DNA of 64,000 nucleotides, taken from positions 1 through 64,000 of the forward strand of contig NKIY01000001.1 in the NCBI GenBank assembly GCA_002256345.1, read 5' to 3'. The notes under the pieces were generated by a model. That model did not search any database and was not told the origin of the DNA. It was given only the letters and a program-made list of their open reading frames with translations. This document shows positions 1 through 18,852 of the stretch, piece after piece (within the stretch, counting starts at the first letter, position 1; every line of letters starts with the position of its first letter). Source of the DNA: Bradyrhizobiaceae bacterium PARB1 (GTDB lineage Bacteria; Pseudomonadota; Alphaproteobacteria; Rhizobiales; Xanthobacteraceae). The position numbers and the translations under genes are program-made.

Positions 1-471
1 TGCTGGGGCTCCGCCCTGGCCGGCGGTGCGGCCGCCGCCGCGCGGGGCGGTGCGGCCATGGCGGGTGGAGCCTCCACCGCCTACAGCCTCGGCGCCGCCG
101 GTCAGTCCGGCGCGTCAGGTGTCGCGTCGGGACTCGGCGGCGTCGCCCGTGCCGGCGCCAGCGCCGCGACTTCGCCGCTTCGCCGGGCCACCTCTCGCGC
201 CGCCGAGAGCATGCGTTCGAGTTTCAACGAGGGCGGCATGGCCGCCTTCGAGGCGACCGGAGGCTCCTCGACCAAGGGCACGATCGGTAGCGACGCCGCC
301 GATACAGCCTCGTCTTCATCCGGAGGGTCCGGCGGCGCCCCCGCCTGGGCCCGGCGCATGAAGCGCTCCCAGTCCCTGACGCACGGCGTCCAGGCCGCCG
401 CCCACGCCGTCCGCGCCGGCGATGCACACGGCGGCGGCTCTTCAGTCAACCTCGCCGAAAGTGACCGCTGA
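1..471 (+). CDS. trbL: TrbL, P-type conjugative transfer membrane protein (C-terminal part)
   Basis: Frame 1 is open from the first base to a TGA at 469-471, so only the last 156 residues are present. The segment is the Ala/Gly/Ser-rich hydrophilic tail that follows the membrane segments in TrbL, an inner-membrane channel component of the type IV secretion apparatus for conjugation (VirB6-like). The stop codon shares its final A with the ATG of trbF (TGATG), which signals translational coupling. The family call rests mostly on gene order, because this low-complexity tail is weakly diagnostic alone. Confidence 0.8.
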   Translation, partial: CWGSALAGGAAAAARGGAAMAGGASTAYSLGAAGQSGASGVASGLGGVARAGASAATSPLRRATSRAAESMRSSFNEGGMAAFEATGGSSTKGTIGSDAADTASSSSGGSGGAPAWARRMKRSQSLTHGVQAAAHAVRAGDAHGGGSSVNLAESDR

Positions 472-1154
472 TGTTCAAACGACCCTCCACCCATTACGGC
501 AAGGCGCCCGAGCCCGAGACGCCCTACCAACGCGCCGCCCAGGTCTGGGACGACCGCATCGGCGCGGCCCGCGTCCAGGCCAAGAACTGGCGCTTGATGG
601 CCTTCGGCTCGCTGATCCTGTCGGCGGGGTTTGCCTCCGCCCTGGTCTGGCAGTCGGCGCGCGGCACCATCGTGCCGTGGGTGGTGCAGGTTGATCGGCT
701 CGGCCAGTCGCAGGCCGTCGCGCCGGCGGTCGCCGACTATCGCCCGACCGATCCGCAGATCGCCTGGCATCTGGCGCGGTTCATCGAGCAGGTCCGCTCG
801 ATCCCCGCCGACGCCATCATCGTGCGGCAGAACTGGCTGCGCGCCTACGACTTCACCACCGATCGCGGCGCGATGGCGCTCAACGACTATGCGCGCTCGA
901 ACGACCCCTTCACCAAGGTCGGCACGCAGCAGATCGCGGTCGATGTCTCCAGTGTCATCCGCGCCTCGCCCGACAGCTTCCGCGTCGCCTGGACCGAGCG
1001 CCGCTATCAGGACGGTTCGCTCGCCGAGACCTCGCGCTGGACCGCTATCCTGACAATCGTCGTGCAGCCGCCACGCGACGCCGAGCGTCTGCGGAAGAAC
1101 CCGCTCGGCATCTTCGTCAACGCCATCAACTGGTCACGGGAGCTTGGGCAATGA
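471..1154 (+). CDS. trbF: TrbF, conjugal transfer protein (VirB8-like)
   Basis: 227 residues. A short cytoplasmic N-terminus (about residues 1-40) is followed by one membrane segment (about 42-64, ending in LVWQSA) and a periplasmic VirB8-type domain; the middle contains the RQNWLRAYDFTTDRGAMAL stretch characteristic of TrbF. VirB8-type proteins nucleate the mating-pair-formation channel at the inner membrane. The start overlaps the trbL stop by one base and the stop overlaps the trbG start (ATGA), so the genes are one tightly packed operon. Confidence 0.92.
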   Translation: MFKRPSTHYGKAPEPETPYQRAAQVWDDRIGAARVQAKNWRLMAFGSLILSAGFASALVWQSARGTIVPWVVQVDRLGQSQAVAPAVADYRPTDPQIAWHLARFIEQVRSIPADAIIVRQNWLRAYDFTTDRGAMALNDYARSNDPFTKVGTQQIAVDVSSVIRASPDSFRVAWTERRYQDGSLAETSRWTAILTIVVQPPRDAERLRKNPLGIFVNAINWSRELGQ

Positions 1155-2200
1155 AGCCGTCTTTCCGTAAAGCCGAAAACCCGGCCTTACCCGCAATCGC
1201 TAATCCGTCGTTCCGCACATCCGCCTTGCCGCTGGCCCTGCTCGCGGCGACGGTGCTCGCTGGCTGCGCCACCACGCAAAAGCCGCCCGAGATCGCCTAT
1301 GACGACGCCGCGCCGGCGACGATCGCGGTCGACCCGCCCGCGCCCATCACCGTGGTCGAACTTTCCCGTCCGCTGCCGCTGCCGGGCCAGATGAAACCGG
1401 TCGAACCGTCGCGTCGCGCCCCGGAGGCCACCGACCCGGCGGCACGGGTGAACCAGGCCAACGCCGCCGCCCGCGTCCAGCCCGTCCGCGACGGCTTCAT
1501 CAACGCTATGCAGGTCTATCCATACACCGGCGGAGCGCTCTATCAGGTCTATACCGCCGTCGGGCAGATCACCGACATCGCGCTCCAGCCCGGCGAGCAG
1601 CTCGTCGGCGCAGGCCCCGTCGCCGCCGGCGATACCGTGCGCTGGATCATTGGTGATACCGAAAGCGGCTCCGGTGCCTCGCGTCAGGTCCACATTCTGG
1701 TCAAGCCATCGCGCGCTGACCTGATGACCAACCTGATCATCAACACCAATCTGCGGACCTACCATATGGAACTGCGCTCGACCGAGCGGACGTATATGGC
1801 CTCGGTCTCCTGGCAGTATCCGCAGGATCAGCTCATCGCGCTGCGTCGGCAAAATGCCCAGGCGGAAGCCGCGCAGCCGGTCGCCTCTGGCGTCGATCTA
1901 GCCAACATCAACTTCCGCTATGCGATCGAGGGCGACCGAGCGCCGTGGCGGCCGCTGCGCGCCTACGACGATGGGCGGCAGGTGTTCATCGAGTTCCCGC
2001 GTGGCATCGCCCAAGGGGAAATGCCGCCGCTGTTTGTCGTCGGCCCGGAAGGCAACACCTCCGAACTGGTCAACTACCGCGTCCGCGGCCACCACATCAT
2101 CGTCGATCGCCTGTTCGCCGCCGCCGAGCTGCGGTTCGGCAATGGGAATTCCCAAAGGCGCGTCCGCATCGTGCGCACCGACGGGAGGCCGACCTCGTGA
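1151..2200 (+). CDS. trbG: TrbG, conjugal transfer outer-membrane complex protein (VirB9-like), lipoprotein
   Basis: 349 residues. The N-terminus has a basic stretch, a hydrophobic segment and a lipobox (TVLAGC, Cys at about residue 39), indicating a lipoprotein signal; the mature protein is a VirB9/TrbG domain (the segments GALYQVYTAVGQITDIALQ and NLIINTNLRTYHMELRST are typical). VirB9-type proteins form the outer-membrane core of the T4SS with the TrbI/VirB10 protein encoded next. The start overlaps trbF by four bases and the stop overlaps trbI (GTGA). A lipobox in the VirB9 member is notable because VirB7 normally supplies the lipoprotein. Confidence 0.92.
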   Translation: MKPSFRKAENPALPAIANPSFRTSALPLALLAATVLAGCATTQKPPEIAYDDAAPATIAVDPPAPITVVELSRPLPLPGQMKPVEPSRRAPEATDPAARVNQANAAARVQPVRDGFINAMQVYPYTGGALYQVYTAVGQITDIALQPGEQLVGAGPVAAGDTVRWIIGDTESGSGASRQVHILVKPSRADLMTNLIINTNLRTYHMELRSTERTYMASVSWQYPQDQLIALRRQNAQAEAAQPVASGVDLANINFRYAIEGDRAPWRPLRAYDDGRQVFIEFPRGIAQGEMPPLFVVGPEGNTSELVNYRVRGHHIIVDRLFAAAELRFGNGNSQRRVRIVRTDGRPTS

Positions 2201-3414
2201 GCGAGCCTGAGCCCCGGAAGGAGGACGAGGATGCGCCACTCGGCGGATCGGTCGCGGACGCGGCCGCCCCGATGCGGCTTCGCGGCGAGGCGCCGCGCGT
2301 CACCCGACTGTCGCGAAAGGCGCTGGCCGGAATCGGCGTGGTCGCCAGTGTCGGCCTCGGCGGTGCCTTGATCTACGCTCTCCAGACCCGTGATGGCTCC
2401 GGGCCGAGAGAGGAACTCTATTCGACTGAGAACCGCTCAACAGCCGACGGGCTGGCCGGTCTGCCCCGCGACTATAGCGGGGTGCCGCGGTTGGGGCCGT
2501 CGCTTCCGGGCGATTTGGGACGTCCGATGCTCGATGCTCAGAATCGCGGCCAGCCGGTCCCGGCGCCCGGTATCGCCACGCCTAATCCTGGGATCAGCGC
2601 CGAAGAGCAGCGGCGGCTTCAGGAGATCGAGGCGGCGCGAACGAGCAAGATGTTCGCCGGGACCGAGAGTCGCACCATATCCGTGCCGGGTGTCGCACCG
2701 GAGGTCGCCGCGCCGCCGCCGTTGCCCAATCTCACCGGCCTCGGGCTCGCGCCGCCGCCTGCGACGCCATCCGCCCAGGATCGGCAGCTCGCCTTCCTCA
2801 ACGCCGCCGCCGACCGGCGCACCGTCGCGCCTGATCGGGTAACGGCGCCGGCGTCCCCGAACGTCCTCCAGGCCGGAGCGGTCATCGCGGCCGCGCTGAT
2901 CACCGGCATCCGCTCCGATCTGCCAGGGCAGATAACCGCGCAGGTGACGGAGAACGTCTATGACAGCCCGACCGGCCGCATCCTGCTCGTGCCGCAAGGC
3001 ACGCGCCTGATCGGTCAGTATGACAACGGCGTCGGTTTCGGTCAGCGCCGGGTGCTATTGGTGTGGAACCGCCTCATCCTGCCGAACGGCCGCTCGATAG
3101 TGCTCGAGCGCCAACCGGGCGCGGACACCGAAGGATACGCCGGCTTGGAGGACGGGGTCGACTATCATTGGTGGGACCTCGCCAAGGCCGCCGCGCTGTC
3201 GACATTGCTTGGCATTGGCGCGGAGTTGGCTACCGACGACAATGATCGTCTGGTGCAGGCAATCCGCGACGGCGGGCAATCGACGATCAATGACGCCGGC
3301 CAGCAGATCGTGCGGCGGCAGCTGAACATCGCGCCCACGCTGACGATCCGGCCGGGTTTCCCGGTTCGGGTCATCGTCACGCGCGACCTCGTCCTCGAAC
3401 CCTATGGAGGTTGA
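2197..3414 (+). CDS. trbI: TrbI, conjugal transfer protein (VirB10-like)
   Basis: 405 residues from a GTG at 2197 that overlaps the trbG stop (GTGA), with a GGGAGG sequence upstream; the frame is open further upstream but that part overlaps trbG. Layout: cytoplasmic N-terminus, one membrane segment (about residues 37-57, ALAGIGVVASVGLGGALIYA), a Pro-rich linker (about 100-220), then the VirB10 C-terminal domain (LQAGAVIAAALITGIRSDLPG onward to LDLAPT-like end). VirB10 proteins bridge inner and outer membranes and transmit energy to the channel. Family length and domain order look complete. Confidence 0.93.
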   Translation: MSEPEPRKEDEDAPLGGSVADAAAPMRLRGEAPRVTRLSRKALAGIGVVASVGLGGALIYALQTRDGSGPREELYSTENRSTADGLAGLPRDYSGVPRLGPSLPGDLGRPMLDAQNRGQPVPAPGIATPNPGISAEEQRRLQEIEAARTSKMFAGTESRTISVPGVAPEVAAPPPLPNLTGLGLAPPPATPSAQDRQLAFLNAAADRRTVAPDRVTAPASPNVLQAGAVIAAALITGIRSDLPGQITAQVTENVYDSPTGRILLVPQGTRLIGQYDNGVGFGQRRVLLVWNRLILPNGRSIVLERQPGADTEGYAGLEDGVDYHWWDLAKAAALSTLLGIGAELATDDNDRLVQAIRDGGQSTINDAGQQIVRRQLNIAPTLTIRPGFPVRVIVTRDLVLEPYGG

Positions 3415-3641: not shown

Positions 3642-4574
3642 TCAGCCCACAAATCCATAAATTGGCAGGCCCAAGCAGAGAAGCACACTCGGCAGCAGGC
3701 TCCTGGACATTGTTCTAGCGAGGCTAAGCAATCGTCTGAGCGCGGGGTTGTCGTTTTTCGATGACCAGATCGCGCAGAAGGGCAGGATTTCGTCCTTGAT
3801 CTGACGGTAGATGACACCCGGGAATCTTGCGGCTCCGGCCGCTTCATGAACGAGCGTTAGGCCTTGGCCCATCGCAACGAGATGCATTAGATTATCCCTA
3901 CCGACGCGAAGCCGCGCGATGCTTGGATGGTGCCCGAGATCGCCGAGATGCTTGACGAGATAGTCATAAATTTCCGGCCCCGGGTCGTCCTCGCTGAGAA
4001 TGAAGTGCCGGTCGCGAAGATGCATCCAGTTGAGTGTACGCAGCGACGCGAGTTCATGCTTGCTCGGCATGACCGCCAAGACCCGCTCGTTCCATAGGTG
4101 AGCCACATCGCAACCTTCGGCGACGGGCTGTCCCGTCAGAAAAGCGATATCCAGATGAAGACGCTGGACGGCGGCAATGTGCGCAGCGGGACCGCCCTCG
4201 ATCAGGTCAGGTCGAACACCTGGATTAGCGCTGACATAGGCGCGCAGCAGATCGGGCAGGAATCCGGAGGCGAGCGACGTGAAGATCCCAATTCTAACGG
4301 TGCCGGCCTCGCCGCGTCCGAAGGACCCAGCATCGGCAGCTGCGCGCTCGATTTCATTCAATGCCCGAAGCGCGCGATACAAAAATCGCTGGCCAGCGTA
4401 CGTGAGACGGACGCCGCCATGATGGCGAATGAAAAGAGCCACGCCTACCTCGTCCTCTAGGTCGCGGATACGTCGGCTGACTGCGGATTCGCGAATGTCG
4501 AGCGCAATTGCCGCGCGACGAAAGCTGCCACGCTCTGCGGCTGCGACGACGTATCGGAGATGGCGCAATTCCAT
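3642..4574 (-). CDS. LysR-family transcriptional regulator
   Basis: 310 residues from the ATG at 4574 (MELRHLRYVV), which aligns with the usual LysR N-terminus; the longer in-frame extension to 4682 is Arg-rich and unlikely to be translated. The N-terminal winged HTH (about 1-60: FRRAAIALDIRESAVSRRIRDLEDEVGVALF) is followed by a substrate-binding domain (about 90-290, DIAFLTGQPVAEGCDVAHLW and ALVHEAAG-like segments). It is convergent with the trb operon. LysR genes of this kind commonly sit beside trbI/DUF2274 in ICEs; target and ligand are unknown. Confidence 0.88.
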   Translation of the reverse strand: MELRHLRYVVAAAERGSFRRAAIALDIRESAVSRRIRDLEDEVGVALFIRHHGGVRLTYAGQRFLYRALRALNEIERAAADAGSFGRGEAGTVRIGIFTSLASGFLPDLLRAYVSANPGVRPDLIEGGPAAHIAAVQRLHLDIAFLTGQPVAEGCDVAHLWNERVLAVMPSKHELASLRTLNWMHLRDRHFILSEDDPGPEIYDYLVKHLGDLGHHPSIARLRVGRDNLMHLVAMGQGLTLVHEAAGAARFPGVIYRQIKDEILPFCAIWSSKNDNPALRRLLSLARTMSRSLLPSVLLCLGLPIYGFVG

Positions 4575-5014: not shown

Positions 5015-5878
5015 TCACGGGTTGCATCCACTGCACTGCCCGGGATCCGCGGTTGTTGCTGGTGCCAGGCGCTCGATCCGGTGGCCACAAGCCGCGCAGG
5101 ACAGCACCTCCGCCTTGATCGCCAAGGTCGGCTCGCCGCACCATGAACAGGGCAAACCGACGAGGCGCTCGGTCACGGCGAAACCGGGCGCTGCGCAAAC
5201 CGGGCACGGGCTGCGGAACCGACGGACCAGGTCGAGGGTCGCTCGCTTGATGGCCCGCATGCGCGTCGGATTGCGGTGCGCGCGCATGTCGGTCTCTACA
5301 AAGCCCGCGCCGCACATCCCGATCACCTGCGTGACGGCATTTTCGAGGTCCTCCGCGTTGCGGATATTCTTGATCAGCGCGCGAGCCGGCGCCGGCTGGC
5401 CGTCGATGGCGCCCATGACGATCACGCCGTGCTCAGGGAACTGCGCGCGGTCCGCGAAGGCGCGGGCCGCACCCACGTCCGATACAACCGCGTGGCTGAA
5501 GTTCGTGGTCGGACTCGCATGATGCCCGATCAGTTCGAGGCCGGAGGCGCGGTCGGCGAGAACCACGATCTCACGGGCGAACGGGAGGAATGGAATGTAG
5601 GGGTGCGGACCGAAACTGCCTTCGCTGGCCAACGCCACCTGGGCGTCGGGCGCGTCTGCGAACGCCGCTGCGATCTTGGCGCGCGCCGCATCGAGCTGCG
5701 AGCCGGTCCGCTCGACGTCCCGGCTAAAGGTGCCGAAGCGGTCGGTATCGATGCTATCGCTCACCCGGACCCGCAGGCCGAGCGCGCGCTCAAGCAATGG
5801 AGCGATCACCCGCTCCTTGCCGTGCATCGTCGCGAGCACCGCCGGCTCTTGCCTGTAGGGTCGGGGCGCGCTGGCCAT
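5015..5878 (-). CDS. DUF6671 family protein with C-terminal zinc ribbons
   Basis: 287 residues. An N-terminal domain (about 1-210) with the segments ATMHGKERVIAPLLE, DTDRFGTFSRDVERTG and ASEGSFGPHP matches my memory of the DUF6671 family, of unknown function and also present in cyanobacteria. The C-terminus has four Cys pairs (CPVC, CSWC, CAAC, CSGC), read as two zinc ribbons. Its ATG is two bases after the stop of the cysD-like gene, so it is in the dabB-dabA-cysD unit. No reaction can be assigned; the conserved acidic/His motifs could be a catalytic pocket. The gene context suggests an accessory role with the carbon or sulfur activities of the operon. Confidence 0.75.
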   Translation of the reverse strand: MASAPRPYRQEPAVLATMHGKERVIAPLLERALGLRVRVSDSIDTDRFGTFSRDVERTGSQLDAARAKIAAAFADAPDAQVALASEGSFGPHPYIPFLPFAREIVVLADRASGLELIGHHASPTTNFSHAVVSDVGAARAFADRAQFPEHGVIVMGAIDGQPAPARALIKNIRNAEDLENAVTQVIGMCGAGFVETDMRAHRNPTRMRAIKRATLDLVRRFRSPCPVCAAPGFAVTERLVGLPCSWCGEPTLAIKAEVLSCAACGHRIERLAPATTADPGQCSGCNP

Positions 5879-5880
5879 CG

Positions 5881-6786
5881 CTAGAAATACCCCTCGCGCT
5901 TCTTCTGCTCGAGCGAGCCGCCGTCCTCACCGTCGCTGATCCGGCCCTGACGCTCGGAGCCCGAGGCCGCCAGTGTCTCCCGAACCACGGAATTGAGGTC
6001 GGTCGCCTCCGATTCGACCGCCGCGGTGACCGGCCAGCAGCCGAGAGTGCGGAAGCGCACCGTCATTGTTTCGACGATCTCGCCGGCCCGCAGCCGCATG
6101 CGAGGTTCGTCATCGACCACGATCAGTCCGCCGCCGCGCTCGACCACCGGTCTCGGCATCGCGAAGTAGAGCGGCGCGAGCGCGATGTTGTGAGTGAGCG
6201 CGTAAGTCCAGAGGTCGATCTCGGTCCAGTTGGAGAGCGGGAAGACGCGCGCCGACTGGTTCTTGCCGAGCCGGGTGTTGTACAAGCGCCAGAGCTCGGG
6301 ACGCTGCTGGCGGGGTTCCCAGACATGCCCCGCGCCGCGAACGGAAAAGACCCGCTCCTTGGCCCGCGATTTTTCCTCGTCACGGCGGGCGCCGCCGAAG
6401 ACGATATCATAGCCGCCCTGGTCGAGTGCGGCCTTCAGCGGCTCGGTGCGCATCGCCAGCGTGTAGCGGTCGCCATGATCGAAGGGGTTGAGCCCCGCGG
6501 CGCGACCTTCCTCATTGGCGTGGACGATCAGCTCAAACCCGTGCTCGCGCGCGAAGGCATCGCGGAAGTCGAGCAGCGACCGAAATTCCCAGGTCGAGTC
6601 GATGTGGAGCAGCGGAAACGGCGGGGGACCGGGATAGAAGGCGCGCAGGGCGAGATGCGCCATCACGGTCGAGTCCTTGCCCGCCGAGAACAGCATGACC
6701 GGCTTGCGCGCTTCGGCTACCGCTTCGCGCAGGATATGGATCGCCTCGGATTCGAGCCGCGCCAGATGCGAGAGCCGCGCGGTCAT
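5881..6786 (-). CDS. cysD: CysD-like sulfate adenylyltransferase subunit 2 (ATP pyrophosphatase)
   Basis: 301 residues. The PP-loop SAGKDS is at residues 34-39, followed by [41 protein letters not shown] and the C-terminal [13 protein letters not shown], all hallmarks of CysD. CysD makes adenosine phosphosulfate from ATP and sulfate together with the GTPase CysN. The start was set at 6786 because its ATG overlaps the dabA stop (ATGA); a start at 6801 would lie inside dabA. No cysN or cysH is encoded nearby, which is odd for a two-subunit enzyme, so it may work with a chromosomal CysN or have a different adenylylating role in this operon. Confidence 0.9.
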
Positions 6787-9347
6787 TCGACAGCATCCCA
6801 CAACAGACCGCCGGCGTAGCGGCGGATCGTTCGGCCGTCCTCATCGATCCGGAACAGATGCACCCAGCCATTGTCGACGAGTTCGCGAACGCCGCCATGG
6901 GCGGCGATCATCTGGCTGAGCACCTCTTCGGGCGCTTCGATGAAGACGTTGAGCCGCAGCGGCTCATGGACGAACCGTGTGCCGTCATGCACCGACTGCC
7001 AGGGCAGCCCGACCTTCAGGTCACCGGAATTGCCTTCCAGCACGCCCAATTGCCCGACGACGTTGTGGAGCACCTTGTTGCCGCTGCCGAAGGCGCGGTT
7101 GTTCACGGTCGAGCCGTAATATTGCAGGTTGATCCAGCTCGCGACGACCATCGGCGCGGTCATGATCAGTTCGAGAACGCCGAACCCGTCGTCCTTGCGC
7201 CACTCATAGTCATGGAGGAACGCGCGGCCGCCGAGGTCGAGCCCGCGGGTGCGTTCGCGCGGCGCGGCGATGAACGCGGCGTTGCCGGCGAGACCCCATT
7301 CGGGGCGAACCTGCGCCCAATCGCGGCTGCGGGCCTTCACCGCATGATCTATGTCCGCGGTCTGCTTGACGCCGAGTAGCAGCGCTCGCTCGGCGCGTGC
7401 CAAGGACGAGGCTTTGGCGAGCGCAACGCGCAGACCGGCCAGATCACCGGCGTGCGAAATGGGCAATCCGTCGGCATCGAAGATGCGGACCTCGTCGGTC
7501 GTCGTATCGTGCAGGCAGCCGAGGAACCACGTATCCTCAGGGATAACGATCCCCTTGTCGGCAAGGCCGGTGCGGACGCCGGAATCGTTGAGAATGGCGG
7601 CGGCGACGCGCGCGTTCGCCTCACCGGTATGGCCGCCGCACGCGCCGCAATCGAGCCCCGAGGCGTGCGGGTTGTTGACGGTCGTGCTGCCATGTCCGGT
7701 AAGCAGCACCAGCCGCGCGAACCCTTCAGTCATCGACATCGCGCGCAGCACCGCCTCGGCCATGGCGACGCGCTGTTCGTCGTCGAAACCGGTGAGCCGG
7801 CCGCCGACCATGCTCGTCTTAAGACGCGGCCCGATGCGGCCGATGATGCTTGCGTCGAGACCGTCAGTGTTCGGGTCGGTGACCGTGCGGGTCAGCCGCG
7901 CGCTGTCGCCGACGAGCTTGCCGGCGAACAGCAATCCCGCCGTCTCGACATAGGTGAACGAGGACACCGCCGAGAGCTTGAACGCCTTCCACGCCTTGGT
8001 CGCGCGGCGGCGCAGCAGGCGCAGGTTGAGTATCTCCGATTCCTCGGCCTGGGTGGCTCCGGCGACAGCCTCGCACACGATGAAGGCTGGCTTCAGCAAC
8101 ACCGGGCACTGCGCGCCGCCGGTGTCGCGACCGATCGGCACGTATTCGATCGGGAAGCCGAAGAAGCCGGCGAAGCCAATCGTCTCGGCCTCGGGACAGA
8201 CGGTTTCGAACGCGCGCCGATAGACCTCGGAGCGGACGTCGATGCAGAACGCCGCCTGGAACATCGGGCGGATTTTAGCCGGATGCGCCGCCGGTGTTGT
8301 GAGGTGCTGCGCCATTCGCGCCAGCAAGCGCCGCCGGTATGCGGCCTCATAGGCTTCGTGGAGGATCAGATCGAGCGCGAGCTCGGGATCGTCGCCCAGC
8401 CGCTCGTCTTCGGGCAGAGTGGCCGCCGCGGCCATTGCCTTGCTCCAGGCTGCCCTGAAGTCCGGATCGACGCGCTCGAGGAACAGCGCATAGCCCCACA
8501 CGACCCGAACCGCGAGCAGCTCCACCAGCGTGTCGTCGCCGCGCCCGTAGAGCGCATTGTCCCAGACGAGGTAGCGCGCATAGGCTGCCCAGCCGCCAAT
8601 ATCGATCAGCGCGCGGTGCAGATAATCCTCGACCGCGCGCTCAGGAATGCCGAGCGCCGCAACGACCGCGGCGATCGCATCACGCGGGTCGTCGGGCATC
8701 GACGCGACGGCCTGGCGGAAGCCCTTGATCCCCATCGTCTCGGGATTGCGGTCGAACCGCATCGCCGTACGCCAGGCGGCATAGGGAGGCAAAGCGCGCG
8801 CTGGCAGCTTCCAGGCGGCCTGGCCTTCATCGAAATAGGCCGCGCACCATTTGGAGATCTCGTCGATCATGAAGGCCGTGCGCGAAGCCTGACGGTCACC
8901 CGCCGCCAAGCCGTCGAGGGTTTCGGCGACGGTCGCGACCACGGCCTTCGGCCGGCCATTCCTGACCGGTTCGTGTGCGGCCGCCCGGCGCAGCGAAGCG
9001 GTGTCCCTCGCCAGCGGCGAGAGACCCGATGTTGCGGCTATGCCCGCCGCGAGGTCGCGGTCTTCGATCAGTCCTGCCGCTAGCGCCTCGCGGTAAAAAG
9101 CGCGCGGCATCAGCATATCGACCCCGGCCACCCGCTTCAGCGTCGCGCAGGTCGCCGCGAAGCTCTGGTCGCTGAACCCGAGGAACGGATTGACCGCGAC
9201 GAAATGCTTGAGCGGCCATAGCGGCGCGATCTTGTTGCAGGCGCGGTCTATCGCGGGGTCGATCGTCAGCTGTTCAGGGCTCATCGAGGGCGGCTCGGTG
9301 GCCGCGTGGCCTGGCGGATCAATCGCAATGGCGACGGTGTGGCTCAT
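6783..9347 (-). CDS. dabA: DabA, inorganic carbon transporter subunit (DUF2309, carbonic-anhydrase-like)
   Basis: 854 residues. DabA forms a membrane-associated complex with DabB that takes up inorganic carbon, thought to hydrate CO2 unidirectionally using the ion gradient. The zinc-site residues are all present: Cys368 and Asp370 (FCIDVRSE), His552 (TGHGS) and Cys567 (LDCGACGG), with the same 2- and 15-residue spacings as in characterised DabA. The start at 9347 overlaps the dabB stop (ATGA); the frame is open further upstream to 10013, but that region is dabB in another frame. The stop overlaps the cysD-like start. Family length is normal. Confidence 0.95.
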
Positions 9348-10975
9348 GGATGGACTCCGCTGGCGGTGGTGGAGGGGGTCGCGCCGGTGCGCGGCGGCGG
9401 GCTCGGCCAGAAGCGCAGCACCAACCGGTTGGCGAGCGTGTTGACGTAAAGGCCGTTGGCGAGATGGACATGGAGTGCCTGCCAGCGCGGCGTGGCTGCC
9501 TTGCCCGGCAACAGACTTTGGAAGACCGTTACCGCCGCGAAGGCGAGCACGACCAGGGCGACAATGACGAGGTCGAGCGGGCCACGCAGCGCGTGCACCG
9601 GCGGCACCGAACCGGCCAGCACATGCTCCGCCGCCCACTGCAGCACGAAATAGGCGATCGCCACGACCGCCGCGAGCGCGAGGATCCGGCCGATGACATA
9701 GAGGCTGGGACGCTCGTCGAAGGCCTGGGTGATCAGGTGCGCAAGACCGAGCATCACTACTGCGCCGAGCGCGAACACCCCGGGCTGCGCGGTGATCGTC
9801 GCGCCGAACAGCGTGCCAACGAGGAGGGTGACCGCCAGAACCAGGCCGACGATCATCGCCATCCGAGCAGGGTGCGGGTTCCCGCCAGGGCTCGGCGACC
9901 ACGACGCCCGCGCCAGGTCGATGACGCTGCCCGACGAGAGGAAGGCGTGCGCCTTGTAGAGTGAGTGGGCAACGATGTGCAGGAGGGCGGCGGCGAAGGC
10001 GCCGAGCCCGCATTGCAGCATCATGAAGCCCATCTGCGCGATCGTCGAATAGGCCAGCGAAACCTTGACGCTGGTCTGGGTCAGCATGACCACTGATCCG
10101 AACAGGGCGGTGATGCCGCCGATTATGACCAACACCTCCATCGACGGCACCGATAGGGAGATCAGCCCGGCGAATCGCAGCACGAGGAAGCCGCCGGCAT
10201 TAATGACACCGGCATGGAGGAGTGCGGACACCGGCGTCGGCGTCTCCATCACCTCGGTCAGCCAGCCATGAAAAGGAAACTGAGCCGACTTGAGCAGCGC
10301 GGCGACCACCAGCAGCACCGCGACCGCGTGGATCGTCCCCGGAATGTCGCCTGCAACGCGCATCGTCTCCGCCCCGGCGAAGAGCACCGCATAGTCGAGG
10401 CTGCCGAAGATTCGGTGAAGCAGCACCATCGCGCCTATCAGGCAAAGGTCCCCGAGGCGGCTGGCGAGAAACTTCTTGCGCGCCGCGAGCATTGCCGCCT
10501 GCCGCTCGGGATAGAACAGCAGCAGCTTGTTGAGCCCGACACTGGTCGCGATCCACGCCAGCGCGAACTGGAACAGGTTGCCCGATACGATCAGCAATAG
10601 CACGGCTGCCAGCGTCAGGCACAGCCATCGGGTAAACCGACCCTGCCCCGGATCGCCGTCGAGATAGTTGCGACTGTAGAGGATGACGATCAGGCCGACG
10701 AAGGCGACGAGGCCGACCATGATCGCGCTCAGTGCATCGACATATATGCCCAGCCCCACGCCGCCGATGCCCAGCGTGCCGGTCGTCAACGGACCATAGG
10801 CAACAACGGCAACCCCAGCGGAAAGCGCCATAGCCAACGTGAAGGCAGCCGCGAGGCTTGCCGCCATCGCGGTGCCAGCGATGCGTTGCCGCGCGCCCGG
10901 GGCTACCGGCGCAAGGCCAACGGCCGAAAGGACGAGCGGACCGAACCCAAGAAGCCAAAACAGGGATGATGACAT
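9344..10975 (-). CDS. dabB: DabB, proton-conducting membrane subunit of the DAB carbon uptake complex
   Basis: 543 residues, related to NuoL/MrpA antiporter-like subunits. It is almost entirely hydrophobic, with about 13-15 membrane segments; the centre shows the proton-conducting motifs (FPFHGWLTEVMETPTPVSALLHAG and LTQTSVKVSLAYSTIAQMG-type segments). It provides the cation path that drives DabA. The ATG at 10975 was chosen because GGAGG stands six bases upstream; an in-frame start at 11008 would need a longer leader with no ribosome site. First gene of the leftward unit, divergent from a LysR gene with 108 bases between the starts. Confidence 0.95.
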   Translation of the reverse strand: MSSSLFWLLGFGPLVLSAVGLAPVAPGARQRIAGTAMAASLAAAFTLAMALSAGVAVVAYGPLTTGTLGIGGVGLGIYVDALSAIMVGLVAFVGLIVILYSRNYLDGDPGQGRFTRWLCLTLAAVLLLIVSGNLFQFALAWIATSVGLNKLLLFYPERQAAMLAARKKFLASRLGDLCLIGAMVLLHRIFGSLDYAVLFAGAETMRVAGDIPGTIHAVAVLLVVAALLKSAQFPFHGWLTEVMETPTPVSALLHAGVINAGGFLVLRFAGLISLSVPSMEVLVIIGGITALFGSVVMLTQTSVKVSLAYSTIAQMGFMMLQCGLGAFAAALLHIVAHSLYKAHAFLSSGSVIDLARASWSPSPGGNPHPARMAMIVGLVLAVTLLVGTLFGATITAQPGVFALGAVVMLGLAHLITQAFDERPSLYVIGRILALAAVVAIAYFVLQWAAEHVLAGSVPPVHALRGPLDLVIVALVVLAFAAVTVFQSLLPGKAATPRWQALHVHLANGLYVNTLANRLVLRFWPSPPPRTGATPSTTASGVHP

Positions 10976-11039
10976 GGTCGCCTCCAGGGAGCGGGGAGCA
11001 GCAACCACCTAACTATCGTGAGCTAGGCATTCTATAAAA

Positions 11040-11068
11040 TACAAAGATTGTAAGATATCGTTCGGTTT
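11040..11068. promoter_or_regulatory. Putative LysR operator between dabB and the NhaR-like gene
   Basis: Contains TACAAAGATTGTA (11040-11052), an inverted repeat TACAA-AGA-TTGTA that fits the T-N11-A pattern bound by LysR-type regulators. The 29 bases from 11040 are repeated with three mismatches at 16427-16455. It lies 65 bases before dabB and 32 bases before the LysR start, the usual position for a divergent LysR operator. That the adjacent regulator binds it is inference. Confidence 0.65.
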
Positions 11069-11083
11069 CCTAAACTCACCGGC

Positions 11084-11971
11084 ATGGCGAGTCTGAACTA
11101 TCATCACCTGCGCTACTTCTGGGCGATCGCTCATGAAGGCAGCCTCACCCGCGCCGCCGAGCGGCTCAACCTCTCGCAGTCGGCGCTCTCGGTGCAGCTC
11201 GGCAAGCTCGAACTGCAGCTCGGACACCCGCTGTTCGACCGGACCGGCAAGCGCCTCATCCTCACCGAGGCCGGGCGTATCGCCCTTGACTACGCGGACA
11301 CCGTATTCCAGGCCGGCGACGAGCTGGTCAGCACGATGAAGGGTCGGCCGGTGGATCGCCGGCAGGCGTTCCGGGTCGGCGCGTTGACCACGCTCTCGCG
11401 GAACTTCCAGCTGGAGTTCCTGAGCCCGCTCGTGGGCCGGGCCGACGTTGAACTGATCATCCGCTCGGGCACCATGCGCGACCTGCTGGCCCAATTGGAG
11501 GCCCATGCGATTGATGTCGTGCTTGCAAACAGCGCTCCTCAGCACGACGCGCGGTCAGACTTTCGCAGTCACCTGCTTGCTCAGCAACCGGTCGCGTTGG
11601 TCAGGCGATCAAGCGTCGAACCTTTTGCGTTCCGTTTCCCGGAAGATTTGCGATCCCAGCCTGTCCTGCTCCCCAGCCTCGAAAGCGAAATCCGGGTCGC
11701 GTTCGACCGGATCCTCGACCTCGCCGGGGTGCGCCCGATCATTATTGCTGAAGTGGACGATATGGCCATGTTGCGACTTCTTGCCCGCGACAGCGACGGT
11801 CTGGCGCTCGTGCCGCCGATCGTGGTGCGCGACGAGCTGGCTGCCGGCCTTCTCGTCGAGGTCTGCCCAGTCCCGAACCTCAGCGAGACGTTTTATGCAA
11901 TCACACAGAAGCGCCGCTTCCCCAATCCCTTGCTCGCAGAGTTGCTCATGCGGGCGGCGAAGGGAAAGTGA
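11084..11971 (+). CDS. NhaR-like LysR-family regulator of the dab unit
   Basis: 295 residues. The N-terminus NYHHLRYFWAIAHEGSLTRAAERL is the NhaR-type LysR signature, followed by the HTH recognition region (LSQSALSVQLGKLELQLGHPLF) and a NhaR-like effector domain (about 90-290). NhaR proteins respond to cations or pH in E. coli; in carbon-uptake loci a LysR-type activator commonly stands divergent to the transporter. Transcribed away from dabB with the putative operator in between, so it probably controls dabBA-cysD-DUF6671 and its own gene. The effector is unknown. Confidence 0.9.
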   Translation: MASLNYHHLRYFWAIAHEGSLTRAAERLNLSQSALSVQLGKLELQLGHPLFDRTGKRLILTEAGRIALDYADTVFQAGDELVSTMKGRPVDRRQAFRVGALTTLSRNFQLEFLSPLVGRADVELIIRSGTMRDLLAQLEAHAIDVVLANSAPQHDARSDFRSHLLAQQPVALVRRSSVEPFAFRFPEDLRSQPVLLPSLESEIRVAFDRILDLAGVRPIIIAEVDDMAMLRLLARDSDGLALVPPIVVRDELAAGLLVEVCPVPNLSETFYAITQKRRFPNPLLAELLMRAAKGK

Positions 11972-12012
11972 TCCGGCCGCTTTGGCTGGCTCACCAAGGG
12001 CACCATCGGCTT

Positions 12013-13326
12013 TCACCTTGGCCAGGTTTCTGGATCCAGCGCCAAAACCTCTCCGGCGAGATAGAGCGACCCGCAGATGACCACACGCGGTGGTGGTCCA
12101 GCGTCCGAAAGCGCCAGATCGAGAGCCGACGAGACGTCGGGCCGAGCTTCCGCGCAAAGGCCCGCCGCCCGCGCGCCATCCAAAAGTAACGCCGGATCGG
12201 CTGCCGAACTCGCATCGAAGCCCACGAGGAACAGCTTTAGGGAACCGACCGACCGCAACGCCGCAAAAATGCCCTCAAGGTCCTTGTTCGCGAGCACGCC
12301 GAGGATGACCACCAAGGGCCGACCGTCCGCTTCTCTGAGTGCGCGGAGCGACTGCGCCAAAGATTTGAACGCGTGCGGATTATGGGCGCCATCGATCCAG
12401 AGATCGGCCCCTCGCGCTGATGCTCTTTCGGCTAACGGACCGGCCGTCAAGGGCTGCATGCGGGCTGGCCACGAGACGCGTCTCAGCCCCTCCGAGATGG
12501 ATTGGTCCGGGAGGCCGAACGTGCGGGCGACAGCGACCGCGAGCCCAGCGTTCAAGACCTGGTGCGCTCCTGCAAGACGACCGGCGGGCAGGTCCAGAAC
12601 GCCGGTCGCATCCTGGTAACGAAGACCTCCGTGTTCCAACCTGACGTCGAAGTCCCGACCCGCAAGCATGAGCATTGACCCGGCGCGCGCGGCCACCTCC
12701 CGGATCACGATCGCGGCGCTTTCGGGCTGCCGGGCCGAAATGCAGGGAACGCCAGCTTTGATGATCCCGGCCTTCTCCTCCGCGATCTTGCCGATCGTGT
12801 CTCCGAGAAACTCACAATGATCGAGGGCGACGGGCGCGATCACGGTGATCGCCGGACGCTCGATGACGTTCGTTGCGTCATAGCGCCCGCCGAGCCCGAC
12901 CTCGACCAGACACAGATCGGCGGGCGTCTCCGCGAACGCCAGCAACGCCGCCGCGGTGGTTACCTCAAAGAATGTGATCGGCTCGCCCGTGTTTGCTGCT
13001 TCGATCCGCGTCAGCAAGTCGGTGAGGTACTCTTCAGAAATCAATTCGCCGGCCAGCCGGATCCGCTCGGCAAACCGCACGAGGTGGGGTGAGGTATAGA
13101 CGTGCGCGCGCAGACCAGCAGCCTCTGCCATTGCGCGCAGGAAGGCGATGGTTGAGCCTTTTCCGTTCGTTCCCGCGACATGGATTACCGGCGGCAAACG
13201 CCATTCGGGACGGCTCAATCGTTCTAAGAGACGATCGATCCGGGTAAGCGACAGGTCGATCATCTGCGGATGCAGCGTTCGCAAACGCTCCAACGCAGCG
13301 TCATGAGGCCGGAGATGGTCCGTCAA
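12013..13326 (-). CDS. folC: FolC, bifunctional folylpolyglutamate/dihydrofolate synthase
   Basis: 437 residues. Mur-ligase fold: ATP loop AGTNGKGST (residues 51-59), YTSPHLVRFAERI, EVGLGGRYDATNV, the conserved DHCEFLGDT, AEEKAGIIK with the carbamylated-lysine region, and DGAHNPHA in the C-terminal domain. FolC adds glutamate to dihydropteroate and to folates. The frame begins at TTG 13326, with a GGACGGAAG-like purine stretch upstream; the region matching family N-termini (LERLRTLHPQMIDLSLTRI) starts about ten residues in, so this start is plausible but not certain. Third gene of the ilvD-pyrC-folC unit; 87 bases separate it from pyrC. A FolC on an ICE would be a second copy in most hosts. 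Confidence 0.93.
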   Translation of the reverse strand: MTDHLRPHDAALERLRTLHPQMIDLSLTRIDRLLERLSRPEWRLPPVIHVAGTNGKGSTIAFLRAMAEAAGLRAHVYTSPHLVRFAERIRLAGELISEEYLTDLLTRIEAANTGEPITFFEVTTAAALLAFAETPADLCLVEVGLGGRYDATNVIERPAITVIAPVALDHCEFLGDTIGKIAEEKAGIIKAGVPCISARQPESAAIVIREVAARAGSMLMLAGRDFDVRLEHGGLRYQDATGVLDLPAGRLAGAHQVLNAGLAVAVARTFGLPDQSISEGLRRVSWPARMQPLTAGPLAERASARGADLWIDGAHNPHAFKSLAQSLRALREADGRPLVVILGVLANKDLEGIFAALRSVGSLKLFLVGFDASSAADPALLLDGARAAGLCAEARPDVSSALDLALSDAGPPPRVVICGSLYLAGEVLALDPETWPR

Positions 13327-13413
13327 GAACTTCCGTCCGACACATTCGGCCCGTCGGCAGCGCCCAGAGGGCTGCGGCCAGCGGATGGCCGCCCAACGTC
13401 TTTGACGCGGCGC

Positions 13414-14517
13414 CTAGATCGGCTCATCGACCCGTCCCCGACAGGTCCAGGCAATGGCCGCGCCGGCCCGGAAGGGCACGATGCGGCTGCCGGCGGCGGC
13501 ATAAGAGGATGGCGCCCGCCACGCCGTCCGCTCAAGCACGATCGACCCCGCGTTGAGCGGAAGACCATAGAAGCGCGGACCATGCTCCGAGGCGAAAGCT
13601 TCGAGCCGGTCGAGCGCCCCGTCGTCTTCAAAGACCGTGGCGTAACTCTGCAGCGCCACGGGGGCATTGAAGATGCCGGCGCAGCCGCAGGCCGACTCCT
13701 TGTCACCGACGACATGCGGCGCCGAATCTGTTCCGAGGAAGAATTTCGGATTCCCGGACGTCGCCGCGCGGCGCAGCGCCAGACGATGCCGTTCCCGCTT
13801 GGCGATTGGCAGGCAGTAGAGATGCGGCCTGATGCCGCCGTCAAACATGGCATTACGATTGATCATCAGGTGGTGCGGCGTGATCGTGGCGCCGACGTTC
13901 GGCCCACTAGCCTCGACGAAGGCGACTGCCTCGGCAGTGGTGATATGTTCGAAGACGATCTTCAGAGCCGGGAAGTCCGCGACGATCCCGGCAAGCACAC
14001 GGTCGATGAACACGGCTTCGCGGTCGAATATGTCAACGTCATGGTCGGTGACTTCCCCGTGGAGCAGCAGCGGCATTCCGATGCGCTGCATGACGTCGAG
14101 GACGCCGAAGATGCGACGCACGTCGGTCACCCCCTGCGCCGAGTTGGTGGTCGCATGCGCAGGGTAGAGCTTGGCCGCGGTGAATACGCCCGATCTGAAG
14201 CCGCGCTCGATTTCCGCCGGATCGATGCCGTCGGTCAGATAGGCCGTCATAAAAGGCGTGAAGGCGAGACCCGGCGCGAGCGCAGCCTGGATACGTGAGC
14301 GGTAGGCTTCCGCCGCGGCCACGGTCGTCACAGGCGGATCGAGGTTGGGCATGACGATCGCCCTGGCGAACTGACGGGCGGTCTCGTTGACGACGGCGGC
14401 GAGCATCGCGCCGTCACGCAGATGCACATGCCAATCATCGGGCTGGCGAAGGATCAAGCGGTGCGCGCTGGATGGCTCTAGCCTCTCGGCTGCGGCGCCT
14501 GGGTCAGATATCGGCAT
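13414..14517 (-). CDS. pyrC: PyrC, dihydroorotase (type II, E. coli class)
   Basis: 367 residues. Dihydroorotase closes carbamoyl-aspartate to dihydroorotate in pyrimidine synthesis. Metal ligands seen: His30 and His32 (DWHVHLRDG), Lys116 ([13 protein letters not shown], the carboxylated lysine), His153 (LLHGE), His191 (FEHITT) and Asp264 (GTDSAPH). This compact E. coli-type enzyme differs from the larger class I dihydroorotase expected of many alphaproteobacterial chromosomes, which fits an ICE-borne copy. Its ATG lies 14 bases inside the ilvD stop region, indicating translational coupling. Confidence 0.94.
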
Positions 14518-16270
14518 AGACGTGCTCTTCCGCGGCAGCGCCTGGATGGGTCACCGCGCCCTTGCCGGCGGAACCGACGGTCTGCGCGTAGCGCCACAGC
14601 GCCCCAGACTGGAAGGCATGCCGGCGCGGCTGCCACCGCTCACGGCGCGACTCCAGTTCTTTAGTTTCAAGGCGCACGGAAAGCGTTCCGCGCGCGGTGT
14701 CGATCTCGATCATATCGCCGTCCTCGATCAGCGCGATTGGACCGCCGACCGCGGCTTCCGGGCCGACATGGCCGACGCATAGGCCGCGCGTCGCGCCCGA
14801 GAAGCGGCCATCGGTGATCAAGGCCACTTCCTCGCCCATGCATTGGCCATAGATGGCCGAGGTGGTGGACAGCATCTCGCGCATGCCGGGTCCCCCGCGC
14901 GGCCCCTCATAGCGGATCACCAGCACCTCGCCCGCCTGATAGCGCCGCTGCATCACAGCTGCGAAGGCGTCCTCCTCCCGGTCGAACACGCGCGCCGGAC
15001 CGCTGAAGGTCAGCGTTCGCAGGCCCGCCACCTTAACGATCGCTCCTTCAGGCGCGAGATTTCCCGAAAGGCCGACCAGGCCGCCGGTCGGGGACAGCGG
15101 CTGCATTGCCGGTCGGACGACGTCCTGGTTGTCCGGCAGACGCACGCCTTCTAAGTTCTCGGCCAAGGTGCGGCCGGTCACGGTCAGACAATCCCCGTGG
15201 AGGAAACCGCCGTCGAGGAGCGCCTTCAGCACCACCGGCACGCCGCCAACGTCGTGCACGTCCTTGGCGAGATAGCGTCCGCCGGGTTTCAGATCGGCGA
15301 TCAGCGGCGTGCGCCGGAACACCGCGGCGACATCGAAAATGTCGAAAGCAATGCCGGCCTCATGTGCCATGGCGGGCAGATGCAGCGCGGTGTTGGTCGA
15401 TCCCCCCGTCGCCGCCACGACTGCCGCTGCATTCTCCAGCGCCTGGCGTGTAACGATGTCGCGCGGCCTGAGGCCCCGTTCCAGCAGCGCCATCACAGCG
15501 CGACCGGACGCGTCCGCGAAGCGGTCTCGCGACTCGTAAGGCGCCGGCGTGCTGGCCGAACCCGGCAGCGCAAGGCCGATCGCCTCCGACACATAAGCCA
15601 TGCTGTTGGCGGTATACTGGCCGCCGCACGACCCCGCCGATGGACACGCCACCGTTTCGAGTTCGGCCAAGTCGGTATCGGTCATGGTCCCGGCGGCGTT
15701 GGCGCCGACCGCCTCGAACACGTCGAGCACGGTTACGTCCTTTCCGCGGAAACGTCCCGGCAGGATCGAGCCGCCGTAGAGAAACACTGAGGGAACGTTA
15801 AGGCGCAGCATCGCCATCATCAGTCCCGGCAGGGTTTTGTCGCAGCCGGCCACCCCGACGAGGGCGTCGTAGCAATGCCCGCGCATCGCGAGTTCGACCG
15901 AGTCGGCGATTACCTCTCGGCTAACCAGCGACGCCTTCATACCGGCGTGACCCATCGCGATGCCGTCTGTGACCGTGATCGTGGTGAATTCGCGCGGGGT
16001 GCCGCCCGCGGCTGCCACGCCCTTTTTCACCGCCTGCGCCTGGCGGGACAAAGAGATGTTGCAGGGCGCCGCCTCGTTCCAGGTTGAAACGACACCGACG
16101 AAGGGCTGGGCGATCTCGCGCTGCGACAGGCCCATGGCGTAAAGGAATGACCGGTGCGGCGCCCGCTCGGGACCGACCGTTGTATGCCGACTGGGCAAGC
16201 CCGTCTTGTCCGCGTCCCAACCTACCGTCGGCGCTCGACCCTCTTCAACGCCTTCCGGATGATCGTTCAA
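14504..16270 (-). CDS. ilvD: IlvD, dihydroxy-acid dehydratase
   Basis: 588 residues. Converts dihydroxy acids to the keto acids of the valine and isoleucine pathway. Iron-sulfur cysteines are in NEAAPCN, GCDKT and [34 protein letters not shown] and the C-terminal [12 protein letters not shown], which includes the metal/active-site region, are intact. Start: TTG at 16270 with GAGAGGG seven bases upstream; no in-frame ATG fits the family N-terminus before residue 46. First gene of the leftward ilvD-pyrC-folC unit, 156 bases after the second copy of the LysR-type motif. An oxygen-labile iron-sulfur enzyme on a mobile element is unusual. Confidence 0.94.
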
Positions 16271-16426
16271 GATTCGCCCTCTCGGCCAAAAGGCCCTCGC
16301 GCATCCTGCGGCTTGCTTGCATCACCACGCTTGTTCCACGACGCCGGGAATCCATGGCGAGACAGGCAGCATCAGCTCGCAGGCCGCTAAGTGCTGAAGA
16401 TAGACTCAATGATACCTTCTGTTGAC

Positions 16427-16455
16427 TACAAAGATTGCAAGACATCGTTCTGTTT
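16427..16455. promoter_or_regulatory. Second copy of the LysR-type motif, upstream of ilvD
   Basis: TACAAAGATTGCA (16427-16439) plus the following AAGACATCGTTCTGTTT match 11040-11068 at 26 of 29 bases. The copy has the same orientation relative to its leftward unit (ilvD-pyrC-folC) as the first has to dabB. It lies between the 3' end of the TerB gene and the ilvD start, so it can only serve ilvD. Inference: the NhaR-like regulator also acts here. Confidence 0.6.
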
Positions 16456-16527
16456 TATGTATCGTCACCCTTGGTCGGTCGCGCCGTTCAGACGTTGAAC
16501 ACACGTTTGGCGCCGACACATGTCGAA

Positions 16528-16995
16528 CTACGGTGCGTCGGCAATACCGAACTCGGCGGCATCGAGCCCAAGGACCTCGCAGATGCGCAGGGCCGCCCGG
16601 CGCTCTTCAGCATCAAAGCCGCCATCGGCGGCGGCGATTGCGCAGCATGCCTCGACCAGCATTGCCGGGTAGCGCGCCGCACCTTTGACCCTAGCGACGG
16701 CTTCTAACGCAGCGGCCTCGCCGCCTTTCTGGTCGGAGGCGAACCGCTCGGTCATTGCTTCGAAGGTGGCGCCGACATCGTCGAGACCGAACGCGGCGAT
16801 CGGCTGGAATCCGCGGAGCAAGCCCAGCATCCGATCATGCTCCTCAGTCGTCACCCACCCGTCAGCGTAGGCGACCAGCGCGCATCCCGCCACGATGCCC
16901 TCCATCAGATGCTCGTTCCGCGCCCTGTGAACCTCGTCGCCGAACTCTTCCCAGGAGCGTTTGGAGAAGCGGCCAAGCGAACGTCGATATGGCAT
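16528..16995 (-). CDS. TerB-like tellurite-resistance/stress protein
   Basis: 155 residues. The central part (EGIVAGCALVAYADGWVTTEEHDRMLGLL and ACCAIAAADGGFDAEERRAALRICEVLGL) shows the two helical acidic repeats of TerB-type proteins, which associate with TerC-type membrane proteins and may bind metal. Start at 16995 with AAAGGAC six bases before it; the longer in-frame opening to 17226 overlaps the zinc-ribbon gene. The TerC gene lies 0.3 kb upstream in the same direction, so they probably form one unit. Ligand and role in this element are not known. Confidence 0.8.
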   Translation of the reverse strand: MPYRRSLGRFSKRSWEEFGDEVHRARNEHLMEGIVAGCALVAYADGWVTTEEHDRMLGLLRGFQPIAAFGLDDVGATFEAMTERFASDQKGGEAAALEAVARVKGAARYPAMLVEACCAIAAADGGFDAEERRAALRICEVLGLDAAEFGIADAP

Positions 16996-18571: not shown

Positions 18572-18656
18572 TGGTGCGGGTGGCCGGGGTCGAACCGGCA
18601 CTCCTTTCGGAACTGGATTTTGAATCCAGCGCGTCTACCAATTCCACCACACCCGC
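18572..18656 (-). tRNA. tRNA-Leu (anticodon CAA)
   Basis: 85 bases on the minus strand form a complete class II cloverleaf. The acceptor stem GCGGGTG/CACCCGC is followed by an encoded ACCA, the anticodon loop TTCAAAA lies between CTGGA and TCCAG, there is a long variable arm, and the T-arm is GCCGG-TTCGACC-CCGGC. The 3' end faces the element. Confidence 0.95.
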
Positions 18657-18790: not shown

Positions 18791-18843
18791 GTGGATATGG
18801 TAGACAAACCACTTTTTGAGTCGAGCGCGTCTACCAATTCCAC
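18791..18843. repeat. Inverted repeat around the tRNA-Leu break point
   Basis: GTGGATATGGTAGAC (18791-18805) and GTCTACCAATTCCAC (18829-18843) pair at 13 of 15 bases, with a 23-base centre holding TTTTGAG, the anticodon-loop sequence. The right arm is tRNA D-arm sequence; the left arm is on the element side. Symmetric arms around a short overlap are the layout of a tyrosine-recombinase core site, so this may be the attachment site. Confidence 0.55.
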
Positions 18844-18852
18844 CACAGGGGC
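18814..18852 (-). pseudogene. 5' half of a second tRNA-Leu(CAA), broken in the anticodon loop
   Basis: Minus-strand sequence beginning GCCCCTGTGGTGGAATTGG follows a normal tRNA-Leu through the D-arm and 5' anticodon stem (CTCGA) to TCAAAA, then departs; the 3' anticodon stem, T-arm and the matching CAGGGGC acceptor strand are absent. Twenty-three consecutive bases are shared with the intact tRNA, but the acceptor stem differs. The missing half may lie at the other end of the element. Confidence 0.75.

Follow-up and report, generated by a model that had tools for sequence, protein, structure and literature searches.

The first 64,000 nucleotides of contig NKIY01000001.1 of Bradyrhizobiaceae bacterium PARB1 (the window) contain a 29-bp repeat whose two copies precede two leftward gene units, one encoding a DAB-type inorganic-carbon pump and the other consisting of the biosynthetic genes ilvD, pyrC, and folC. 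Our comparisons suggest that the LysR-type regulator encoded at 11084-11971 recognizes a conserved operator with this repeat at its core, and we consider it about 80% probable that the copy before ilvD is an operator of this regulator. Across related loci the site is conserved before lysR, is linked to dabB and sbtA, and stands before ilvD only where the regulator is present. The best reading of the window element would then be a small mobile CO2-limitation regulon for a heterotroph without RuBisCO.

Copy 1 (11040-11068, TACAAAGATTGTAAGATATCGTTCGGTTT) and copy 2 (16427-16455, TACAAAGATTGCAAGACATCGTTCTGTTT) are identical at 26 of 29 bases, and the repeat can be extended to 39 nt at 82% identity. 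The initial annotation described three mismatches, with each copy lying 65-157 bases before a leftward unit, and our measurements agree: 3/29 positions differ, and 64 bases separate copy 1 from the ATG of dabB (10975) and 156 separate copy 2 from the TTG start of ilvD (16270). The TerB gene that it saw ending near copy 2 is likewise there (16528-16995, minus strand). Copy 2 has the same orientation relative to ilvD as copy 1 has relative to dabB. The two operator copies are as follows.

11035..11076, plus strand: operator copy 1, between dabB and lysR; holds 11040-11068; 41.4 bits, the motif having been trained without this locus; profile E=4.5e-7 (the copy itself is in the profile).
16422..16463, plus strand: operator copy 2, before ilvD; holds 16427-16455; 28.8 bits; profile E=2.6e-4; recurs in locus L038 and, weaker, in locus L060.

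A search of the 64-kb window gave no third place within 10 mismatches of either copy. When the organism's own genome (6.95 Mb, 32 contigs) was searched with a 62-base query, copy 1 and copy 2 were the only two places at E<=0.001. A profile of 59 sites, from which the ilvD copies were excluded and in which window copy 1 was included, likewise found only the lysR/dabB site and the ilvD site at E<0.01 in that genome, and its third-best match stood at E=2.1. The motif that gave the score of copy 2 had been trained on 99 loci other than the window; as controls, the best score was 7.9 bits on one strand of 2 Mb of simulated DNA and 1.4 bits among 1000 random 400-bp pieces of the window.

Among 289 genomes of the class, relatives of the regulator were collected at 22 loci in addition to the window; further relatives came from the best 80 of 572 loci in a scan of genome contigs and from plasmid records. 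Judged by record title, Alphaproteobacteria predominate among these organisms, alongside some Beta- and Gammaproteobacteria and Verrucomicrobiota and one Acidobacteria metagenome-assembled genome (MAG). In 22/22 class loci lysR is divergent from dabB, and the upstream regions, aligned on the lysR start, share one common element at a fixed position; a conserved site lies between lysR and dabB. Motif training by expectation-maximisation on 99 loci, with seven held out (the window plus six similar loci), returned AAAAATTCATTGTTTggaccatATCGTTCTgTTTtATAGAAC, with the layout WTCAWWGWTT-N7-ATCGTTCTGTTTTATAGAAC, in which GTTCT-N7-AGAAC forms a T-N11-A palindrome. The left block of the operator is next to the leftward gene, and the right block, with GTTCT-N7-AGAAC, is next to lysR. 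Scores exceed 20 bits in 102 of 106 lysR upstream regions (a total that includes the 99 used for training), with the first base 40-61 bases before lysR, and all seven held-out regions score 27.6-41.4 bits. The initial annotation had named lack of conservation of the motif in related elements as a refutation; this check was run, and it did not refute the claim. Its claim of a palindrome in both copies stands only in part: TACAAAGATTGTA, probably the one meant, is perfect in copy 1 but holds at 4/5 positions in copy 2 and is not conserved by the family, for which reason we rejected this left-end palindrome as the key feature. At the family GTTCT-N7-AGAAC palindrome, both window copies have a degenerate right arm.

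The profile matched at E<=0.01 in 39 of 385 class genomes, and in 32 of these the match lies beside lysR or dabB. Outside the 32, the match in G266 precedes a PF03601 gene, that in G704 is near no panel gene, and the other five (G047, G102, G106, G158, and G687) have E values of 0.0027 to 0.0078 and a gene context that was not among the places compared. The 39 include 21 of the 23 regulator-bearing genomes; the two others, G131 and G197, were possibly outside the 385 drawn.

The site also follows dabB when dabB is away from lysR. Among the 98 loci with both genes, we considered those with a distance above 500 bases between the two or a layout other than divergent, excluding a split-dabB fragment (L127) and the distant second dabB of L125. 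Six of the seven separated dabB genes have a strong site of their own, at 39.6 to 48.4 bits (L035 46.4, L036 44.9, L070 48.4, L109 42.6, L125 44.0, and L133 39.6). Two copies of the site occupy the shorter lysR-dabB gap of the near-identical loci L061 and L090, and the second dab operon of G148 (L195) has its own site, with no lysR within the 12 kb. Sites are further found before sbtA, a gene of the Sbt_1 bicarbonate-transporter family, in two verrucomicrobial loci (L128 and L131); in L128 the Sbt_1 gene is followed by one for a P-II protein (Pfam). SbtA is near lysR in L117, L118, L133, L135, and L137 as well. Because the site accompanies DAB and SbtA, the regulator would serve inorganic-carbon supply. 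An extra site occurs in the verrucomicrobial locus L133 (7617-7658), flanked by what look by eye like a beta-carbonic-anhydrase gene and an RND efflux operon.

Elements of the window type are present in two other genomes, at L038 (regulator 93% identical), which contains dabAB, lysR, folC, DUF6671, pyrC, ilvD, and terB, and at L060 in a Sphingomonas MAG (94%). A site precedes the separate ilvD unit at all three loci that have the regulator (window 28.8, L038 28.9, and L060 24.2 bits) and at none of the four ilvD units for which the fetched stretch shows no such regulator (L034, L037, L140, and L141; best -17.5 to -24.2 bits), L140 and L141 being plasmids from a single Arthrobacter strain. Between window and L038, 28/29 bases of the ilvD site are identical, compared with 26/40 just left of it, 42/80 further left, and 22/60 to its right (all ungapped). 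The proposal in the initial annotation that one LysR-type regulator governs bicarbonate entry together with ilvD-pyrC-folC is thus supported by the comparison, in which the site keeps to lysR, dabB, sbtA, and those ilvD units that have the regulator.

Other layouts join enzyme and regulator differently: ilvD lies inside the dab operon in L033, pyrC is directly behind lysR in L065, L071, and L076, and pyrC is in line with dab in L101. We rejected the notion of a site before every auxiliary enzyme, as no site was found before folC in L062 and L063, before pyrC in L107, L065, L071, and L101, or at the tested starts in L037. The related elements have two further features: an extra divergent DUF6671 gene lies between pyrC and folC in L038 (6233-7078) and L060 (15257-16105), where the window has 87 bp, and L038 has a second, shorter pyrC-like stretch (10889-11362, 52%) beyond terB.

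Several observations weigh against this assignment. The lysR regions of L106, L125, L136, and L138 (4/106) score below 20 bits, the seventh separated dabB (L105) has a weak site of 17.8 bits at a similar distance, and the second, distant dabB of L125 has no site (-15.2 bits). Sites are found some 50-90 bp before genes for PF03601 (YeiH-like) membrane proteins at L207 (6809-7834) and L199 (14133-15188); the L199 gene is ∼6 kb from lysR-dab, and the stretch fetched for L207 contains no dab gene. The protein behind these sites is perhaps another inorganic-carbon transporter. G168, one of the 32 genomes above, has a second match (E=3.7e-4, 34.3 bits) inside an RND efflux gene (L196), which is probably due to chance, so that a score of the strength of the ilvD copy is by itself no proof across hundreds of genomes. 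The ilvD copies score below most lysR copies, the left block is poor at the ilvD site of L060, and the three loci found with a separate ilvD unit and the regulator all belong to one element family. The support for the assignment is comparative.

The regulator and the dab unit of the window are composed as follows.

11084..11971, plus strand: LysR-type regulator, NhaR-like; Pfam HTH_1 and LysR_substrate; NhaR model below cut-off.
9344..10975, minus strand: dabB, membrane subunit of the DAB inorganic-carbon pump; Proton_antipo_M and _N; NF006029 above cut-off.
6783..9443, minus strand: dabA (DUF2309); PF10070, 925 bits, full model; the tested stretch matches the family from residue 65 on, and the start is approximate.
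5881..6801, minus strand: cysD-like gene in the dab unit, with no cysN seen beside it; NF009214 above cut-off.
5015..5878, minus strand: DUF6671 gene, last of the dab unit; PF20376.

The two domains of the regulator are those of the LysR type, and DabA is encoded together with a NuoL-like DabB, as in DAB/DAC pumps. The NhaR-like regulator that was noted divergent from dabB at copy 1 keeps that description: the E. coli NhaR model (NCBIfam NF008284) is the closest NCBI model, but the score of 122.5 bits against a cut-off of 219 led us to reject NhaR proper. The regulator also falls below NF045990, a model of one CbbR group, with 54.6 of 450 bits. Beyond the dab unit lies a second LysR-type gene (3642-4571), AlsR-like although below cut-off, with a 68% match in L060 and 41% matches in L062 and L063. 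At 471-3414, three neighboring open frames look by eye, from their translations, like the conjugation proteins TrbF, TrbG, and TrbI. On the other side, a tRNA-Leu gene (18572-18656) adjoins terC, and its 34-bp piece 18618-18651 is repeated 196 bp on, at 18814-18847 (94%), as would be expected where an integrated element ends in a duplicated attachment site.

LysR-type regulators use a recognition site together with an activation site. By analogy, recognition would fall to the right block of the operator and activation to the left block, which would overlie the leftward promoter. Copy 1 sits in the promoter region shared by lysR and dabB-dabA-cysD-DUF6671, and copy 2, oriented alike, precedes ilvD-pyrC-folC. 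At falling levels of inorganic carbon, the regulator would switch on the bicarbonate pump and, in elements of the window type, ilvD-pyrC-folC as well. We infer here binding, activation at low CO2, a CO2 signal, and transcription of the three genes together.

The second unit contains the following genes.

14504..16270, minus strand: ilvD, dihydroxy-acid dehydratase, motif CDKTLPG with Lys145; TIGR00110 above cut-off.
13414..14517, minus strand: pyrC, class II dihydroorotase, lysine at 116; TIGR00856 above cut-off.
12013..13326, minus strand: folC, folylpolyglutamate/dihydrofolate synthase, EEKAGI lysine at 185; TIGR01499 above cut-off.

An overlap of 14 bases between ilvD and pyrC and a gap of 87 bases to folC suggest a single transcript. 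The three genes are extra copies: elsewhere in the genome there are a folC paralog at 50% identity, five long members of the ilvD family at 34-38%, and two class I dihydroorotase-family genes above the family cut-off, though no second class II pyrC was found. It gave no RuBisCO match, so the pump should not serve a Calvin cycle.

What these three enzymes have in common is membership of families with a carbamylated lysine. In the FolC family the lysine is carbamylated, and threonylcarbamoyl-AMP synthase (TsaC) uses bicarbonate. According to the available part of PMC5770437, the lysine of the Cys-Asp-Lys motif is carbamylated in solved structures of the IlvD/EDD family and is called a common family feature, and the available part of PMC9863593 states that almost all cyclic amidohydrolases, dihydroorotase included, carry a carbamylated lysine (Kcx). 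The initial annotation had named the CO2 chemistry of dihydroorotase and FolC as the theme; what is new here is IlvD as a third such family. The three lysines are kept in the window copies and in 8/8 IlvD, 11/11 PyrC, and 5/5 FolC across the loci searched, carbamylation itself being a prediction. CysD does not fit the theme.

This chemistry offers a reason for the regulon rather than an alternative to it. At low CO2, enzymes that need CO2 (IlvD, PyrC, and FolC) or bicarbonate (TsaC) would lose activity, and extra or tighter-binding copies would restore flux. That the biosynthetic enzymes are present because they need CO2 is plausible; this particular form of the idea is tentative, and we would bet against it. 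A census without preset families took in 586 crude open frames lying up to 3.5 kb from 115 lysR/dab loci; close relatives are among these loci, and the counts are rough. It was led by CysD (16 loci), DUF6671 (12), and SbtA (7). PyrC followed at 5 loci, as did a second LysR, an ABC ATPase (by eye), and a SOUL protein (Pfam); FolC (two of its loci being window-type elements), beta-carbonic anhydrase, and several loose groups were at 3 each, the loose groups, at 26-33% identity, being amidase-like and FAD-enzyme-like by eye. The enzyme groups at >=3 loci are thus CysD, PyrC, FolC, beta-carbonic anhydrase, and these loose groups; the window ilvD lies beyond the census distance. The cysD and DUF6671 pair (5015-6801 in the window) is the most frequent lysR/dab companion.

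DUF6671 is rare, with 8 of 398 phylum genomes containing it, own genome included, and DAB or SbtA is beside it in five of the seven others (L156, L157, L159, L160, and L161). In L158 and L162 no panel gene, and so neither DAB nor SbtA, lies within ∼10 kb of it, and we therefore rejected the idea that DUF6671 reliably marks a carbon cassette. In plasmids we took the best DUF6671 place in each of 12 records (15 places in all). Seven of the 12 have DAB (Mesorhizobium INR15, M. terrae, Aminobacter, Fuscovulum, Ideonella, Nocardia, and Mycolicibacterium) and four have SbtA (two plasmids of Arthrobacter sp. U41, A. crystallopoietes, and Pseudomonas pSDM007, there ∼6 kb off); the Methylocystis plasmid has neither within 10 kb. 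The same 12 places include ilvD at 5, cysD at 4, pyrC at 2, and an intact TsaC (Nocardia) and a carbonic anhydrase at 1 each. On two Arthrobacter plasmids ilvD is beside SbtA and DUF6671 without this operator, and TsaC is near DAB also in L159 and L160. In L160 (7462-17542), TsaC, an NhaR-like gene, DUF6671, cysD, dabAB, lysR, and terC stand side by side. Mur-ligase and Sua5 stretches in L037 were not counted as working genes, being short or partial frames. Enzymes of carbamylated-lysine families, with TsaC, CysD, and DUF6671, are repeated neighbors of DAB or SbtA in both Proteobacteria and Actinobacteria, including at places where the regulator was not seen.

Other observations speak against CO2 need as the reason. 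CysD, the commonest companion, has no known CO2 need, and its companion DUF6671 is an uncharacterized family. The lysine is retained in every copy examined, and we therefore rejected the idea that the element encodes CO2-independent enzymes in which another residue has taken its place. No other Kcx families, such as urease or alanine racemase, were noticed in the neighborhoods, where no search for them by name was made. Some bacterial class I dihydroorotases lack Kcx, and with two class I enzymes in the host, a Kcx-type PyrC could be the wrong way round. The census is small, includes close relatives, and was read in this way after the fact.

A live rival to this reason is an alkaline-pH or metal-stress cassette: scarce CO2 would be one aspect of high pH, and the enzymes would serve as spare metalloenzymes. 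IlvD, PyrC, FolC, and carbonic anhydrase all use metals, TerC-family genes are near the cassettes in L037, L062, L063, L141, L142, L144, L146, L160, and the window (where the gene is named by likeness), and L037 has NhaR and RaiA. The operator itself points elsewhere: it accompanies DAB and SbtA, both of them inorganic-carbon transporters, and none precedes the window TerC or TerB (best -28.2 and -25.2 bits). We regard such a cassette as unlikely. Less likely still is that a dab-type promoter was copied before unrelated cargo as a handy promoter, devoid of physiological meaning. The likeness of the two copies does barely exceed the operator (39 nt), but these enzymes are joined to DAB or SbtA in other layouts too, with ilvD in the dab operon, pyrC behind lysR, and ilvD beside SbtA and DUF6671, and the ilvD site is kept between the window and L038 while its flanks diverge. 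Chance or repeat-element similarity is very improbable, since, for all that isolated matches such as that in L196 arise over hundreds of genomes, the simulated and random controls, the mere two matches in the own genome, and the same place before ilvD in two further genomes argue against it.

The divergent LysR-DAB pair is itself already in print, to judge from the available part of a 2017 COGNAT survey (PMC5700660), whose 'clade A' comprises nuoL-like/ybcC (dabB-dabA) operons with a reversed lysR at the 5' end. The window shares this gene pair and divergent layout; the operator, the regulon, and the biosynthetic genes were not met in that part. Also alike is the CcmR regulon of cyanobacteria, in which, as the available part of PMC3401165 describes, a LysR-type regulator controls sbtA/sbtB, an NDH-type CO2-uptake operon, and itself and is reported responsive to 2-oxoglutarate and NADP+. 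CcmR differs, in the same text, in being a CbbR homolog and a repressor whose regulon consists of transporter operons, ccmR, and ubiX, with no ilvD, pyrC, or folC. The window dabA and dabB belong to the DAB/DAC/MpsAB pump family as described in the parts available of PMC13144422, PMC8552792, PMC12628692, and PMC10880623, and pump activity is predicted here. LysR is absent from the main text of PMC13144422, PMC12628692, and PMC10880623, and biosynthetic partners were not met in the parts available of any of the four. In a literature search with most subscription journals outside its coverage, we found no paper joining DabA, DabB, and LysR, none on DUF6671, and none on the operator of the LysR-DAB pair or on its biosynthetic partners; among titles and abstract starts, ilvD, pyrC, or folC with DAB was not found either.

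These findings propose an operator for the widespread LysR-DAB pair, from which the regulon may be predicted in many genomes, and they link inorganic-carbon supply in a RuBisCO-free host to amino-acid, pyrimidine, and folate synthesis through families with CO2 in the active site. Possibly, though we would not call it probable, the cell meets falling CO2 both by bicarbonate pumping and with spare copies of IlvD, PyrC, and FolC (for carbamylation) or TsaC (for bicarbonate), such cassettes having repeatedly emerged, alongside DAB or SbtA, in both Proteobacteria and Actinobacteria. If this were true, CO2 would be treated as a limiting enzyme cofactor. Limitation of such enzymes by low CO2 in living cells becomes directly testable.

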